Source: Desulfomonilia bacterium
GTDB taxonomy: Bacteria; Desulfobacterota; Desulfomonilia; UBA1062
NCBI GenBank assembly: GCA_036567785.1
Contig: DATCTV010000062.1
Location: 310,001-374,000, forward strand
Direction of reading: 5' to 3'
Length of the DNA: 64,000 nucleotides
In this document: one piece after another, positions 54,483 to 61,501 of the stretch
Layout of the letters: each line of letters opens with the position of its first letter
Numbering within the stretch: the first letter of the stretch is position 1
Translations under genes and position numbers: made by a program
The notes under the pieces: generated by a model
The model's database searches: none
Told to the model about the DNA's origin: nothing
What the model saw: only the letters and a program-made list of their open reading frames with translations

Positions 54483-55544
54483 ATGAAGCACCTGTCCGTT
54501 ATGGAAAGAATATATGTCAGGCTGCTTGACAGGAATTTTCAGGAAGAGATATTCGGCGGTCTTTCAGGTTTCGGGAAAAAAGGCGAAGGCTACATAGCAT
54601 GTTGTCCGTTCCATGAAGATACCCTTCCCACGCTGATAATCAATACCGACAGCCCGCGGTATTTCTGTTTTGCATGCGGTGCTCATGGAGACTGGATCGA
54701 TTTCCTGATTAAATACAGGACAATGAGCTTTAACGATGTCCTTGAGTATCTCAACAAAGCCGCTTCCTTGCGAGTGATCCCTTCAGAAAATGAGTGGAAA
54801 AATGAATTAACCCGCTCATGCATGCTCGAATCGGCAATGAGCATATACTCTGCGATGCTCTTTTCGGAGACGGGAAAAGATGGGCTGACTTATCTCAACA
54901 GCCGTGGATACATGGGCGAGGAGATCGAGCATATGGGACTCGGGCTCTTCCCGGGTTATGAGGAAACTCTCAGTATCCTTGAAAAAGATTATTCCCGGGC
55001 GGAAATTTCGGGCGTGTTTTCTTATTGCAATGAAAACACCCTGATGATTGCAATACCCTACAGGGACTTATGCGGCAGGCTTATGGGCCTATATGGCATG
55101 TCACCTGATAATGAGCATAATTCATATGTGCCGCTTACCAATATGGAATATCTCAAAGGCACGCCCTTGCTTATGTATAAATCAAGAAAACAGGATAAGC
55201 TTGTTGCTGTTGAAGGTTTTTTCGATGCAATGCTTTCGGACTGCATAGGCATCAAGGGCGTCATCGGTGTGGGAAGGGAAGGCCTTACGGCTTCGATGCT
55301 CAAGACCGCCGCCGGTTTCGGGGCGAAAACAATAATACTGGCGCTGTCAGGTGCGGACAAGACGAAAAAGGCAATTGATCTGATAAGAAAAAAAGGGCTC
55401 GAAGCCCGTGTTGTAATGCTGCCTGAGAAGTATGACGATGTTGACGCCTTTATCCGCGACACATGCATAAACAAATTCGGCAAGCTCGTTGACAAAGCCG
55501 TTTCACATGAAGAATGGCTGAAAATACGTACCGGCACAGAATAA
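54483..55544 (+). CDS. Primase-like protein: CHC2 zinc finger plus degenerate Toprim
   Basis: 353 residues, shorter than DnaG (about 580). The CHC2 zinc site is intact: Cys41-x2-His44, Cys62 and Cys65. A DnaG-like catalytic core follows, with the Toprim glutamate in V-E-G-F-F-D. The metal-binding segment that should read like F-D-G-D-E-A-G is L-S-G-A-D-K-T here, so both expected Asp residues are replaced. The third acidic motif D-D-V-D-A-F-I is kept. The DnaB-binding domain is missing. Phage-, plasmid- or defence-related primases are possible, but no such genes are adjacent. Overlaps the following gene by 31 bases. Confidence 0.78.
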   Translation: MKHLSVMERIYVRLLDRNFQEEIFGGLSGFGKKGEGYIACCPFHEDTLPTLIINTDSPRYFCFACGAHGDWIDFLIKYRTMSFNDVLEYLNKAASLRVIPSENEWKNELTRSCMLESAMSIYSAMLFSETGKDGLTYLNSRGYMGEEIEHMGLGLFPGYEETLSILEKDYSRAEISGVFSYCNENTLMIAIPYRDLCGRLMGLYGMSPDNEHNSYVPLTNMEYLKGTPLLMYKSRKQDKLVAVEGFFDAMLSDCIGIKGVIGVGREGLTASMLKTAAGFGAKTIILALSGADKTKKAIDLIRKKGLEARVVMLPEKYDDVDAFIRDTCINKFGKLVDKAVSHEEWLKIRTGTE

Positions 55545-56545
55545 AAGAACGTTACCGCCTGTTTTCATTTCTTTCGGATATCGGCGGAATGAAAAATGCC
55601 CTGGGAGAGATGCGCGGGCTTTTCCTGCCTGAACAGCCTGTTCTGAACAGAGAAGCGTTCATCAGCGATATAAGGGATGCGTACGATGAAGAGTGGTTCA
55701 TACGCACCATCAAGGAAAAGGTCTCAACCCATCCTGAAAATGCAATGGAATACCCGTATTACGGTGAGCCGGTTTTTGTGGAGCCCCTCATCGGGTTTGT
55801 CCGGGGAGATGATCCGATATTTGAAAAATTCAGGGAGGTTATCGGACCGCACCATTTCACCCCCTGGGAAATCATGAAATGGCAGGCCGGAAAAAACGGT
55901 GTAGAACCTCCTGAGCCCTGTGATATCAGCGTGGTTTCTTTTGCCATGCCGTTTACCAGCATGACCAGAAGGGACAATGCATCTGCAAAGGAATGGACCT
56001 CGGAACGGTGGGCACAGAGCCGTCTGCTGGGTGAGATATTCAGCCAGACTTTTGTCCGCGAGATCGTGACACATCTAATGAGTCAAGGCATCCTTGCAGT
56101 TTCGCCGGACGTGACTCCAATGTTCAATAAGAAGCGTTATCCTAAAGTGGGATGGGCTTCCCCCTGGTCCCACAGGCATATCGCCTATGCAGCAGGACTC
56201 GGCACTTTCGGCATGAATGACTTCCTTATCACGGAGAAGGGAGCTGCACATCGTGTGGGCAGCTTTGTGGTCAACCTTAAGCTGAAGCCGAACCGTGAGC
56301 GCCCGGATGATATCCATGCCAACTGTCTTCACTATCAGGGAATAGACTGTCTGAAATGTGCGGCAAGGTGTCCTGTAAATGCCATAACCAGAGAGAATGC
56401 GCACGACAAGGAGGTCTGCTACAGGAAGGTCGCCGCTTCCTTGAAGCACTGCAACAGGAAATATCATATATTCATCTACGGGTGCGGACTTTGTTCCACG
56501 GGTGTCCCGTGTGAATCAGGCATTCCTGAACTGCTGCGACGGTAG
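55514..56545 (+). CDS. Double [4Fe-4S] ferredoxin-type protein (QueG/COG1600-like)
   Basis: 343 residues. The C-terminal 70 residues carry two Cys clusters: C-x2-C-x3-C-P-V-N-A-I, and C-G-L-C-S-T-G-V-P-C. The middle has G-L-G-T-F-G-M-N-D as in epoxyqueuosine reductases. QueG itself is cobalamin-dependent and reduces epoxyqueuosine; this member is divergent in its N-terminal 150 residues. It could be a QueG relative with other substrate. Its start lies 31 bases inside the Toprim gene. Confidence 0.8.
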   Translation: MAENTYRHRIKERYRLFSFLSDIGGMKNALGEMRGLFLPEQPVLNREAFISDIRDAYDEEWFIRTIKEKVSTHPENAMEYPYYGEPVFVEPLIGFVRGDDPIFEKFREVIGPHHFTPWEIMKWQAGKNGVEPPEPCDISVVSFAMPFTSMTRRDNASAKEWTSERWAQSRLLGEIFSQTFVREIVTHLMSQGILAVSPDVTPMFNKKRYPKVGWASPWSHRHIAYAAGLGTFGMNDFLITEKGAAHRVGSFVVNLKLKPNRERPDDIHANCLHYQGIDCLKCAARCPVNAITRENAHDKEVCYRKVAASLKHCNRKYHIFIYGCGLCSTGVPCESGIPELLRR

Positions 56546-56562: not shown

Positions 56563-57417
56563 TCACACAGAGCATGAGAACGCACGTCCTGCGAGCAGAG
56601 CTTTTCTCAAAGGTCGTATCTCAAGCCGTGAACGGTCGATGCCTTCGGCTATATCACATAGCTTTCTGATATTGTATCCAAGGGCAGCAGCCTTATCAAG
56701 TATACGTTCAAAGTCGGCTTTGAAGGCGCCGCCCTCTATCTCTGTATGTACTGGAAGAACCTGAGGCACACTGCTGCCGGCATTTTTTTCAAGTGCTGTG
56801 AGGACGCCGTCAGTTCCGACTTCTTCTATGCATGGAATGTTCGAGGGTATTTCAAGCAGGCCGTTTTCTTCAAAAATGAAAGGGACCTGCGCCCGTGTGC
56901 AACTGAGATATTTAAAGCCCCAGGCAGCGGCCTCTTTCAAGGCGGATGTGTTCATCATCCACCCGGGTGCTCCGAATGCACCTGGTGCGGTTCCGGTTGC
57001 GTCCATATAAGCGCCCACCATTTTTCTGAACCACTCGTGAATGCCTTTTCTGCCCATGATGCCGAGCCAGTCCTGCCACAGCCTGTGATCCCATGCATGG
57101 CAGGCGGTCTCATGGCCGAGTTCTGCTATCTGGCGTACTGCTTCGGGATTTGCGGATGCAATCATCGGGGCCTTGAGCAGCGTCCCGTAAAGGGCAGTTT
57201 CAATGCCGTATGTGCCTGGTGCGTTCGACTTGAGCATTTTCATGAAAAAACGCGGTCTGAACATCTGGATTATCGCAAGACCTGAACGGTCCGGCCCGAA
57301 GGTTACGAAAAAGCTCGCCTTGAGATTACGTTCTCCCAGTGTTTTAAGAAGAGACGGGAGACCGTCCCTGAAACCCCGGTAGGTATCTATATCTACTTTG
57401 AGAGCAAGTTCGGGCAT
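56563..57417 (-). CDS. arnD: 4-deoxy-4-formamido-L-arabinose-phosphoundecaprenol deformylase
   Basis: 284 residues of the polysaccharide deacetylase fold, with the D-I-D-T motif near residues 9-12, the metal histidines in H-E-T-A-C-H-A-W-D-H and the active-site region F-G-A-P-G-W. The overall pattern, including V-L-P-V-H-T-E-I-E-G near the end, fits ArnD. It removes the formyl group from undecaprenyl-phosphate-L-Ara4FN before transfer to lipid A. Last gene of the minus-strand arn operon, 121 bases after the ArnA decarboxylase gene. Only 17 bases separate it from the convergent Fe-S gene. Confidence 0.92.
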   Translation of the reverse strand: MPELALKVDIDTYRGFRDGLPSLLKTLGERNLKASFFVTFGPDRSGLAIIQMFRPRFFMKMLKSNAPGTYGIETALYGTLLKAPMIASANPEAVRQIAELGHETACHAWDHRLWQDWLGIMGRKGIHEWFRKMVGAYMDATGTAPGAFGAPGWMMNTSALKEAAAWGFKYLSCTRAQVPFIFEENGLLEIPSNIPCIEEVGTDGVLTALEKNAGSSVPQVLPVHTEIEGGAFKADFERILDKAAALGYNIRKLCDIAEGIDRSRLEIRPLRKALLAGRAFSCSV

Positions 57418-57538
57418 TTAAAATTCCTGAATATGAATCTGCAGATCGTCAGACTGCATGTAAACCGGTATCATCATATTTAAGTTATATCCGGTTTTCA
57501 TGCAGTCCCAATGCATCATGCCTTCTTTTTGTCGGATT

Positions 57539-58561
57539 CTAAAGTTCATCAAGAAACGCGTTCAAAGTGCGTTTGAGCGCATCATCAAGTTTGATCTTGG
57601 GGGACCAGCCCAGGATCTCCTTTGCCTTTTTGATTGAAGGCACCCTTGTCTGTATGTCCTGGTAGCTTTCTCCGTAGAATTTCTTTGCATCCTGTATGAC
57701 AATCTTGGAGAACTTCTTGTCTTTTTTGTGTGCCGGATGCTCCTTGAACATGACGAGCAGCTTTTCCGCCAGGTCTTTTATAGAGCAGTTGTTTGCGGGG
57801 TTTCCGATATTGAATATCTGGCCGGAAGCCTTGCCGCCTTCATTCCTGATAATTCGCATAAGGCAGTCTATGCCGTCGTCGATGTATGTGAAGGACCTGC
57901 TCTGTTTGCCGCCGTCCACCAGCACGATGGGTTCCTTATATACGAGAGATGCGATGAACTGTGTGACAACGCGAGAAGAGCCTTCCTTGGCTGTTTCTAA
58001 AGAATCAAGTCTCGGGCCGATCCAGTTGAAAGGCCTGAAGAGTGTGAAATCAAGCAGTCCCTTTTCGCCGTATGCCCAGATGACCCTGTCCATCAGCTGC
58101 TTTGAACATGAATAAATCCAGCGCTGCTTGTTGATCGGGCCGAGAATGAAATTGGATTCGTCCTCCTTGAATTCCTTGTCCGTGCACATGGCGTAGACCT
58201 CGGATGTTGAAGGGAATATCACGCGCTTTTTGTACTGTACGCACTGGCGTACTATCCTAAGATTCTCTTCGAAATCAAGCTGGAACACACCCAGCGGATT
58301 TTCCACATAAGTTTTCGGGGTGGCGATGGCGACCAGCGGAAGAACGGCATCGCACTTTTTTATGTGGTATTCTATCCATTCCTTGTTAATGGCTATGTCG
58401 CCCTCGACGAAATGGAAGCGGTTGTTGTCCAGTATGCCGGTCATTGCAAGCTTGTCGTCCCTCAAGTCCATTCCGTATACTTCCCAGTCCGTATCGCGCA
58501 TGATTGTCGCGCTTAAATGTGAACCGATGAAACCGTTTACGCCGATAATAAGTACTCTCAT
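57539..58561 (-). CDS. arnA_C: UDP-glucuronate decarboxylase (ArnA C-terminal half)
   Basis: 340-residue NAD-dependent epimerase-fold enzyme matching the C-terminal domain of enterobacterial ArnA. It shows G-V-N-G-F-I-G-S-H near residues 8-16, P-S-T-S-E-V-Y (Ser-Glu catalytic residues), Y-S-C-S-K (Tyr and Lys) and R-S-F-T-Y-I-D-D-G. It oxidises and decarboxylates UDP-glucuronate to the UDP-4-keto-pentose. In E. coli this domain is fused to the formyltransferase; here the two are separate genes overlapping by 4 bases. Confidence 0.92.
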
Positions 58562-59481
58562 GTCAATTTTTCTCCTTCATGATTTTTAAAGAACCGGTGG
58601 AGATCGTCTCCTGCCAGTGTTTTTCCGCCGATTTCTATCTCTATCGGAACTATCGAGCCTTTTCCTGAGCCGATAAGGAGGTTCTCTCCATATTCTATCC
58701 GGCCGGGCTCGGAAAAGGAGTTTTCAAGAATTGAGACCTTCCAGAATATGATTTTATCTTCACCGAGCATGGAATAGGCCCCGGGGTAGGGACGGGTTAC
58801 ACCTCTCACCAGATTGTATATCTGTAAGGCTTCCACGTTCCAGTCGATGCGGCCGTCTTCAGGTTTCCTTCCTCCGAAATATGAGCCTTTGCTAAGGTCC
58901 TGAGGAGTCTTCTTCACAACGCCTCGGGCCATATCGGGCAGGCATTCATCAAGCATGAGCGCTGCCTCGTTCTGTAGTTTTCCGAAGAGCGAATGGGCAG
59001 TATCGTCATGGGAGATTTCAACGCGCCTCTGCGCGACAATCGCCCCTGCGTCGGGTTTGACCTCCATTTCATGCAAAGTTACACCTGTCTCGGTTTCGCC
59101 CTTTATAATTACCCAGTTGACCGGGCAGCGGCCACGGAATTTCGGGAGCAGCGAGCCGTGCAGGTTATATGCACCGTATTTGGGAATAGAAAGGATATCG
59201 CCGGAAATCATATACCTGTAATAGAAGCTGAATATGTAATCCGGTTTCATGCCGATGATTTCGCTGATCCATTCCGGAGTGTTCGGACTTGTTGGTGTTA
59301 CAAAAGGTATGCCCTTATCGCGGCACAGTGACTTGACCGAAGAAAACCATACGTTCTCGTCAGGATTGTCCTCATGTGTGAATACCAGAGGGATTGAGAA
59401 GCCGTGCTCGATCAGCTTCGATATCCCTGTGACTCCCATGTTGTGGTAGGCAAAGACTATCGCCTTCATTCCGCTACGCAT
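58558..59481 (-). CDS. arnA_N: UDP-4-amino-4-deoxy-L-arabinose formyltransferase (ArnA N-terminal half)
   Basis: 307 residues (or 303 from the second Met at 59469) of the methionyl-tRNA formyltransferase fold. The catalytic [12 protein letters not shown] and the D-A-G-A-I motif are intact, matching the Asn-His-Asp triad of the ArnA N-terminal domain. It formylates UDP-L-Ara4N with 10-formyl-tetrahydrofolate. Split from its decarboxylase partner but in the same order as the fused protein. The intergenic stretch before the next gene, 59482-59634, is repeat-like. Confidence 0.92.
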
Positions 59482-59634
59482 TCAAGCGCCTCCATTGTCT
59501 TCTGTGTCGTTAGCTCCTCAAAAACGGGATCATGAGCATCCTGTTTCGCTCCTCGAGCCAAGCGTAGCGAAGGCGAAGAGACATACATGACTGTATGCCT
59601 GCGCAGCTCCCTCCCTGACTCCTCGGATTGATCT
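59482..59634. repeat. Repeat-like intergenic element inside the arn operon
   Basis: 153 bp between arnC and the formyltransferase gene in an otherwise tightly packed operon. It contains a small hairpin (CATACA at 59582-59587 and TGTATG at 59592-59597), GAGGAG/CTCCTC words at both sides and a string of GCGAAG-like words. This resembles the mobile intergenic repeats of some deltaproteobacteria. A short open frame across it (59466-59654) is not credible as a gene. Confidence 0.45.
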
Positions 59635-60570
59635 TTAATGCAAAGCGGAATCATGTATTCTCCTTATCGTATATGGAGGACGTTTCTTGACCTCCTTATA
59701 TATCCTGCCCACATATTCCCCCATGATGCCGAATGCAAGGAATTGTGCTCCTATGAAGAAGAACAGTACGGCAAACAGTGTGAATACGCCCTGCGCCGCC
59801 CAGTCTGCACCGAAATAAAACCTGGCCACAGCCAGCACTATACCCAGCGATGTACCTGCTATTGCCAGAATCAGGCCTGTATAAAGCAGGAGTTTAAGGG
59901 GAAAATCGGAAAATGAAGTAACAAGGTCGAACTGAAGCGATATGAGTTTTGCTATCGAATATTTGGATTCTCCTGCGAACCTCTCTTCATGCCCTACCTC
60001 GATCTCGGTCACCTTTTTTGCAAACGTCGTGGCAAGCGCAGGAATAAAGGTTGAATGCTCCTGGCTCTTTACCATCAGATCAACCACCTCGCGTCTGTAA
60101 GCCCTTAGCATGCATCCCCAGTCGCTAAGGTTCACGCCTGTGATTTTCCTTGCCCAGCCGTTTACTATCCTGCTCGGAAGCTTTCTGAATATCGAATCCT
60201 TGCGCGCATGTCTCACAGTGCCTACGACCTCAAACCCGCCTTCCTCCATGGTTGATACAAGCCTGGGGATTTCTTCGGGCGGGTTCTGCAGGTCTGCATC
60301 CATCGTTATGATTATCTCGCCCGTACAGCTTTCAAATCCTGCAAACACTGCAGAATGCTGACCGTAATTTCTCATGAGTTCGACTATCCTGATCTTTTCG
60401 CTGGCCCGGGCTTTTAGAATTTCAAGCGAATTGTCCGAACTGCCATCATCGACAAGCACGATCTCGTAATCCCTGTGCATGCCTTCCATTACCGGCACGA
60501 GCCTTTCAAAGAGCCTGTCAAGCCCCTTTTCCTCGTTGTAGACCGGAATAACCACAGATATCTTGTCCAC
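59635..60570 (-). CDS. arnC: Undecaprenyl-phosphate 4-deoxy-4-formamido-L-arabinose transferase
   Basis: 311-residue family 2 glycosyltransferase. The N-terminal domain has V-V-I-P-V-Y-N-E-E, L-V-D-D-G-S-S-D-N and D-A-D-L-Q-N-P-P; two C-terminal membrane helices follow (about 232-295). That build is shared by ArnC, DPM-like and GtrB enzymes. The arn neighbours make ArnC the best call. It moves L-Ara4FN from UDP to undecaprenyl phosphate at the inner membrane. It lies 1 base after the UPF0104 gene's stop. Confidence 0.9.
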   Translation of the reverse strand: MDKISVVIPVYNEEKGLDRLFERLVPVMEGMHRDYEIVLVDDGSSDNSLEILKARASEKIRIVELMRNYGQHSAVFAGFESCTGEIIITMDADLQNPPEEIPRLVSTMEEGGFEVVGTVRHARKDSIFRKLPSRIVNGWARKITGVNLSDWGCMLRAYRREVVDLMVKSQEHSTFIPALATTFAKKVTEIEVGHEERFAGESKYSIAKLISLQFDLVTSFSDFPLKLLLYTGLILAIAGTSLGIVLAVARFYFGADWAAQGVFTLFAVLFFFIGAQFLAFGIMGEYVGRIYKEVKKRPPYTIRRIHDSALH

Positions 60571-60571
60571 T

Positions 60572-61501
60572 TCAGCTGACCTCCCGGATATTTCCGTATA
60601 TATATTTCCTGTTTATGAAAAGCACAATACTGCCTATTCCTACCGCCAGCCACAGGGTAAATACCCTGGCCATGATGGTAGCTAACCCCGCCGCCTGCGC
60701 CGGCACCCCTTCATGCACGATAAGTCCCATGAGACCGGCATCCGTAACTATAAGCCCGCCTGGCAGCATGGAAATAACGCCTATCAGTGTGGAAAAACCG
60801 AATATGGCGGTAGATTTTATTATTCCCATATCGAAACCCAGTCCATTGAGGATTAGAGTAAGCGCCACGCCCTCGCTTGTCCATGCGATAAGCGTTATTG
60901 CAAATGAAGCGATAAGCGTTCTGAAACCGAAAAGGCCGAACATGTCATCGACAGCCTTTCTAAGGTCATCGGCCCTGTGTTTGAGAGATGGTATCTTTGC
61001 GAGAATATCTATGCAGAAACCGGAAAATTTCTGGTTCAGCGCCAGAAGCGGCAGCACACAGAGTATGAGAGCGGCCCACATCCCCTTTGCAAAGAGGCCT
61101 ACGGCAAGAAGAGATATTACACTCAGGCCTATCATGTCCATGTAAAGCTCAGCTGCGATAACCGGGGTCGATGAAATGAACGACCGGCCGGATAATTTCT
61201 TGAGCATCTGACTTTTTATCAGGAGGCCGATCTTGCCCGGCGTTGCGCTCATTGAAAGGCCTGAAACAAATATCACAAGGCTTTCTTTCAGGGTTGTCTC
61301 ATAACCCATTTTTTTAAGGTATATATGCCATCGTCCGAATTTGATCATGTCATTCATGAAACCGAAAAAGGCGATGAGCGGTATAAGATACCACGGGAAA
61401 TTCCTGAGCTCATTGCCCGCCTTCAACACATCACCCCACATGCCTATGCTTGTAAATGCGATTGCGGCAAGAATAATCGTGAAGATAAGGCCTTTCTTCA
61501 A
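60572..61501 (-). CDS. UPF0104/LPG-synthase-TM membrane protein, flippase-like
   Basis: 309 residues with about eight membrane helices. The S-M-S-A-T-P-G-K-I-G stretch near residues 87-96 and the P-G-G-L-I-V-T-D-A-G motif in a late helix are typical of the lysylphosphatidylglycerol synthase transmembrane (UPF0104) family. It sits between arnB and arnC, overlapping arnB by 4 bases. ArnE and ArnF, the small flippase subunits of enterobacteria, are not seen, so this protein may move undecaprenyl-phosphate-L-Ara4N across the membrane. That role is inferred. Confidence 0.85.
   Translation of the reverse strand: MKKGLIFTIILAAIAFTSIGMWGDVLKAGNELRNFPWYLIPLIAFFGFMNDMIKFGRWHIYLKKMGYETTLKESLVIFVSGLSMSATPGKIGLLIKSQMLKKLSGRSFISSTPVIAAELYMDMIGLSVISLLAVGLFAKGMWAALILCVLPLLALNQKFSGFCIDILAKIPSLKHRADDLRKAVDDMFGLFGFRTLIASFAITLIAWTSEGVALTLILNGLGFDMGIIKSTAIFGFSTLIGVISMLPGGLIVTDAGLMGLIVHEGVPAQAAGLATIMARVFTLWLAVGIGSIVLFINRKYIYGNIREVS

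Follow-up and report, generated by a model that had tools for sequence, protein, structure and literature searches.

A probable lineage-specific pseudo-primase with an altered Toprim metal site in Desulfomonilia bacteria

The bacterial primase DnaG (TIGR01391; PDB 2au3, 4edg) combines a zinc-binding domain with an RNA-polymerase/Toprim fold, and the short primase-like protein described here has both of these parts in common with it, as well as the Toprim glutamate and the last D-x-D motif. Unlike DnaG, it lacks the DxD pair, two lysines, a Phe-Arg pair, the end of the RNA-polymerase domain (RPD), and the helicase-binding domain. A known case of lost primase catalysis is the mitochondrial protein Twinkle, whose inactive domain is joined to a helicase: this DnaG/T7-gp4-type primase domain has lost primase activity, and truncation of the N-terminal domain impairs single-stranded DNA binding, according to excerpts of the source (PMC7231222). 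Three of the four zinc-site cysteines are gone from Twinkle, whereas the short protein has an intact zinc site and no helicase. Archaeal DnaG, an exosome subunit, is a primase-family Toprim protein that binds RNA through its N-terminal and Toprim domains, a function for which the Toprim Glu is important (PMC4227792, in excerpt). Its own N- and C-terminal domains replace the zinc-finger and helicase-binding parts, and the short protein has no known exosome link. Phage primases (PHROG 6444 and 47, matching over residues 32–346 and 22–325) also have CHC2 and Toprim in common with it but, at ∼23–29% identity in the best 15 of 162 records, are no closer than cellular DnaG. Among the papers listed in a search of the open PMC literature, there was no account of such a short primase-like protein.

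The gene lies in a 64,000-nucleotide stretch of a Desulfomonilia genome (G000), referred to here as the window, and its features are given in window coordinates.

54483..55544, plus strand: probable pseudo-primase gene, 353 aa plus stop; zinc-binding domain and truncated DnaG RNA-polymerase/Toprim domain; orthologues in 16 other genomes of family f1
54570..54776, plus strand: CHC2 zinc-binding domain, residues 30–98 (C41, H44, C62, C65); PF01807, E 3.9e-18; ligands in 15/15 full-length members
55212..55214, plus strand: retained Toprim Glu, E244; Glu in 14/15 full-length members (Gln in G008) and in the G015 and G020 fragments
55338..55364, plus strand: LALSGADKT replacing FDGDxAG of DnaG, both metal-binding Asp lost; DxD pair in 0/17 family members vs. 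28/28 DnaGs
55437..55445, plus strand: retained last Toprim D-x-D (D319, D321); in 15/15 full-length members and the two fragments
55514..55544, plus strand: overlap of two ORFs, 31 bases including the stop; found in the window genome only
55514..56545, plus strand: QueG/reductive-dehalogenase-superfamily protein, 343 aa, eight conserved Cys (two [4Fe-4S] sites likely), from profiles, fold, and Cys alignment

A preliminary description of this locus had reported a kept CHC2 zinc site and Toprim glutamate, the loss of both expected Asp residues in an LSGADKT motif, a missing helicase-binding domain, and a 31-base overlap with the following gene. All of these observations hold. The 353-aa protein matches the CHC2 zinc-finger model PF01807 over its cut-off, the model also matches 15/15 members, and the zinc ligands and E244 are all there. 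Toprim Pfam models match it below cut-off only (Toprim_2, E 0.0018), and the DnaG model TIGR01391 covers residues 32–346 (E 1.1e-39) with 136.5 bits against a cut-off of 283.6. S289 and A291 align with the positions that are Asp in 28/28 DnaGs. Structure comparison places the end of the protein inside the RPD, at about DnaG residue 360–380, with the C-terminal helicase-binding region absent. The description's broader statement that the metal-site Asp residues are lost fits the DxD pair but not the last D-x-D; given the retained D319 and D321, the metal site is, to judge from the alignment, not wholly lost.

An AlphaFold2 model of the 353-aa protein (15-row alignment; pLDDT 91, pTM 0.88) has the predicted fold of the DnaG RNA-polymerase domain. 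The best solved matches are DnaG RPDs (5guj, Z 24.3 over 246 residues with an rmsd of 2.9; 4edg, Z 24.2), and RPD matches as a group have rmsds of 2.2–2.9 across 245–246 residues. Aquifex primase is matched with Z 23.4 over 338 residues but an rmsd of 7.1, which implies a different placement of the two domains. Other matches are the Bacillus zinc domain (Z 11.3), T7 primase (Z 16.5), and human Twinkle (Z 14.9). A profile search concurs (2au3 at 1.7e-29), and phage primases appear in a viral fold search only as low-TM matches. The window genome encodes two CHC2 proteins, the second being a 584-aa DnaG with the motif FDGDAAG on another contig (G000:C27). Because this normal DnaG is present, the short protein probably does not serve as the replicative primase of the cell.

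Orthologues (39–48% identity) were found in 16 of 60 related genomes, all belonging to f1, a family of uncultured bacteria; with the window genome, 17 of 24 f1 genomes carry the gene. Fifteen of these members are full length, and two (G015 and G020) are clipped by contig ends. The f1 genomes without it are G001, G002, G011, and G022 (77–82% complete), G021 (93%), G004 (97%), and G005 (100%), and its absence from the near-complete G004 and G005 indicates that it is dispensable in the family. The sister family f2 of the same class gave no match at 1e-25 among 18 genomes. In a phylum sample of 395 genomes, with at most five candidates scored per genome, four matches fell outside f1 at 1e-34, all in frames of 598–630 aa, the size of full-length DnaG. 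Scanning named genomes with short peptide patterns recovered only four distant relatives, 22–30% identical.

For residue counts, the 15 full-length members were aligned with 28 DnaGs, three duplicate DnaG loci having been removed beforehand. The Asp loss is general: the short protein lacks the DxD pair in all 17 f1 genomes with the gene, including the two with fragments, and no close homologue among the 17 members has a normal Toprim motif. A change common to 17 genomes rules out a sequencing error or a mutation confined to one genome. The first Asp of the pair survives in one of 15 full-length members (G008) and the second in none, both being present in 28/28 DnaGs; the loop that replaces them is mostly Gly-rich (LALGNG, LCLGSG). 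Two lysines are likewise present in 28/28 DnaGs and 0/15 short proteins. In the DnaG of the window genome these are K226 and K238, which we equate, by motif, with E. coli K229 and K241 and take to be part of the ridge holding the initiating nucleotide. A Phe-Arg pair (F197 and R198 of the same DnaG) has no counterpart in any of the 15, where the alignment has a gap. The zinc ligands (15/15), the Toprim Glu (16/17, the exception being G008), the last D-x-D (17/17), and the Asp following the Toprim Glu (D248; 15/15 full-length proteins) are retained. The Arg matching R218 of the window genome's DnaG is found in 13/15 and is absent from the window protein itself. Six residues (W71, R194, R199, M201, W105, and Y143) are invariant in the short proteins only, which therefore form a group of their own.

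The retained Glu and last D-x-D would be compatible with an active but altered primase, in which they coordinate a single metal and the enzyme is slow, or uses another nucleotide or metal, perhaps as a back-up or stress primase. Excerpts of one report (PMC7367122) describe continued primer synthesis by the D309A mutant of E. coli DnaG in the presence of DnaB, which means that a missing first Asp is not by itself proof of inactivity; in the short family, the second Asp and the two lysines are gone too. With the Glu and last D-x-D kept, loss of catalysis appears probable but is not certain. An altered primase must nevertheless accommodate the joint absence of the DxD pair, both lysines, and the Phe-Arg pair, a member (G008) that lacks the Toprim Glu as well, the missing helicase-binding domain, and the normal DnaG in the same genome, and we consider it unlikely.

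Six pairs within genus g4 gave dN/dS ratios of 0.14–0.20, which indicates purifying selection on the gene. Outside this set, dS was usable in three pairs, with ratios of 0.09, 0.21, and 0.31, and two further pairs were saturated. In a maximum-likelihood tree, the 15 short proteins form one clade (100/100) on a long stem, away from the 28 DnaGs; the DnaGs of family f1 form a single clade too (100/100). In this midpoint-rooted tree, the separate, long-stemmed clade leads us to reject a recent duplication of f1's own DnaG with respect to the 28 DnaGs sampled, and the low identity of the best 15 of 162 phage records leads us to reject capture from a close phage relative. A set of 23 IMG/VR loci showed 24–43% identity to the short protein, mostly across short stretches, and a defense-system search with PADLOC returned matches just to the primase-like part (residues 32–170) of two DRT models. 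The same data bear on whether the protein is a functionless relic, left either by the decay of a DnaG copy or by the capture of part of a phage primase. Its reduced length and lost catalytic residues would suit a relic. The dN/dS values well below 1, the single clade whose members are truncated alike and mostly carry a similar Gly-rich loop, and the weak phage matches all speak against decay or capture, which we regard as very improbable.

The preliminary description had coupled the primase-like protein to the overlapping "QueG-like" protein with two [4Fe-4S] sites. Eight Cys of this Fe-S protein are invariant in 16/16 sequences and its predicted fold resembles that of the superfamily, but it is not QueG: it scores 31 bits with TIGR00276 (cut-off 200) and 23 bits with TIGR02486, again below cut-off, and the true QueG of the genome (271 bits against the cut-off of 200) is encoded elsewhere (G000:C4). 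The name QueG/reductive-dehalogenase (RdhA) superfamily is therefore preferable. Profile matches favor RdhA (9e-9) and QueG (6e-5), and the predicted fold (pLDDT 82) resembles both (Z 14.7 and 13.4, respectively), which makes a cobalamin-dependent reductase the likeliest guess at its function. Close homologues, 61–74% identical, occur in G006, G009, G022, G013, G052, and G008. Together with the window protein they make a group of seven at 61–100% identity with an N-terminal extension of its own, distinct from QueG and from shorter relatives at 37–42%. Their contexts are unrelated to one another, and none was seen adjoining the primase-like gene; G009 has both genes on one contig, 131 kb apart.

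The pair occurs in none of the 16 other genomes with the primase-like gene (one of these, G012, has just 229 bases downstream), and the Fe-S protein is thus a chance neighbor rather than a conserved partner. This result bears on the redox-linked nucleic-acid sensor, made up of the primase-like protein and the Fe-S protein, that had been thought conceivable. The 31-base same-strand overlap does make co-expression in the window genome likely. Given a pair confined to one genome, Fe-S homologues in unrelated contexts, and an RdhA/QueG fold that suggests cobalamin chemistry, such a sensor finds no support and is, in our estimate, the least probable of the readings considered.

Other neighbors vary as well. 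In the window, a gene for an Lcl_C-domain protein lies directly upstream with no gap, and past the Fe-S gene, on the opposite strand, come genes for a polysaccharide deacetylase, an epimerase, a formyltransferase, and a glycosyltransferase. With a likely membrane protein, these stand in a row at 56563–61501 (minus strand) that we take to resemble an aminoarabinose lipid A (Arn) type cluster. The G008 orthologue adjoins the same four genes, with another small gene between and no Fe-S gene. An Rfam search of the window returned three tRNAs only.

Most other relatives have the primase-like gene at another locus. Of the 15 relatives whose contigs extend upstream, 7 have a GuaA-like gene immediately before the primase-like gene (gaps of 6–82 bases). 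A gene for an FAD-dependent oxidoreductase, with a below-cut-off match to the geranylgeranyl reductase superfamily, lies downstream in 12/16, followed by an ABC-F ATPase gene in 12/16; the G012 and G016 contigs end before ABC-F. The ∼321-aa GuaA-like protein, which lacks a glutaminase domain and scores 300.6 bits with TIGR00884 (cut-off 338.75), is often present in f1 genomes besides a full-length GMP synthase. It is encoded at L069:8383–9348 in G006, with counterparts in L158, L159, L160, and L161, several of which adjoin an FAD oxidoreductase gene. A 467-aa ORF, by eye putatively DNA photolyase-like, comes after the GuaA-like gene on the minus strand of L160 (G001).

This arrangement would be consistent with a functional unit formed with the GuaA-like and FAD-oxidoreductase genes, for instance in nucleotide sensing or modification, the window copy being a relocated stand-alone gene. 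The frequency of both neighbors among relatives is in its favor. However, the window genome and G008 carry the primase-like gene elsewhere, G000 has no GuaA-like gene, and G008 has neither gene at the cut-offs used; conversely, in G002 and G004 the GuaA-like and FAD genes are adjacent and the primase-like gene is missing. Since each is found without the other, the primase-like gene and the pair are inherited apart, and we judge a unit slightly less probable even than an altered primase. The variable neighbors and the pair that persists without the gene indicate instead that the primase-like gene is gained and lost as a single unit with no obligatory neighbor, and its surroundings point to no replication partner.

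We therefore favor, with a probability of roughly 60%, a pseudo-primase specific to this lineage, which would bind nucleic acid but not synthesize primers. The protein would be an old DnaG paralogue that retains only its zinc-binding domain and the larger part of the RNA-polymerase (Toprim) domain, having lost the DxD metal ligands, the two conserved lysines, and the helicase-binding domain. It would make no primers, but its zinc domain and Toprim cleft may bind single-stranded DNA or RNA and perhaps also a nucleotide. The proposed role has precedents in the Twinkle N-terminal domain and archaeal DnaG, as far as the excerpts of those sources go. Of the nucleic-acid binding or sensing role suggested earlier, binding probably remains and the redox link finds no support. 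As a non-catalytic binder or regulator, the pseudo-primase could, for example, lend its zinc domain to DnaG or withhold it; alternatively, it might bind RNA as archaeal DnaG does. The more specific proposal, a stand-alone chromosomal pseudo-primase that gave up catalysis and is kept by most of one family as a regulatory nucleic-acid binder, is tentative and falls somewhat short of even odds.

Labeling every CHC2/Toprim protein "DNA primase" can mislead. If the reading as a pseudo-primase is true, then an inactive primase that is a protein of its own, is kept by selection, retains its zinc site, and coexists in bacteria with a normal DnaG would provide a natural test of the non-catalytic functions of the zinc and Toprim domains.
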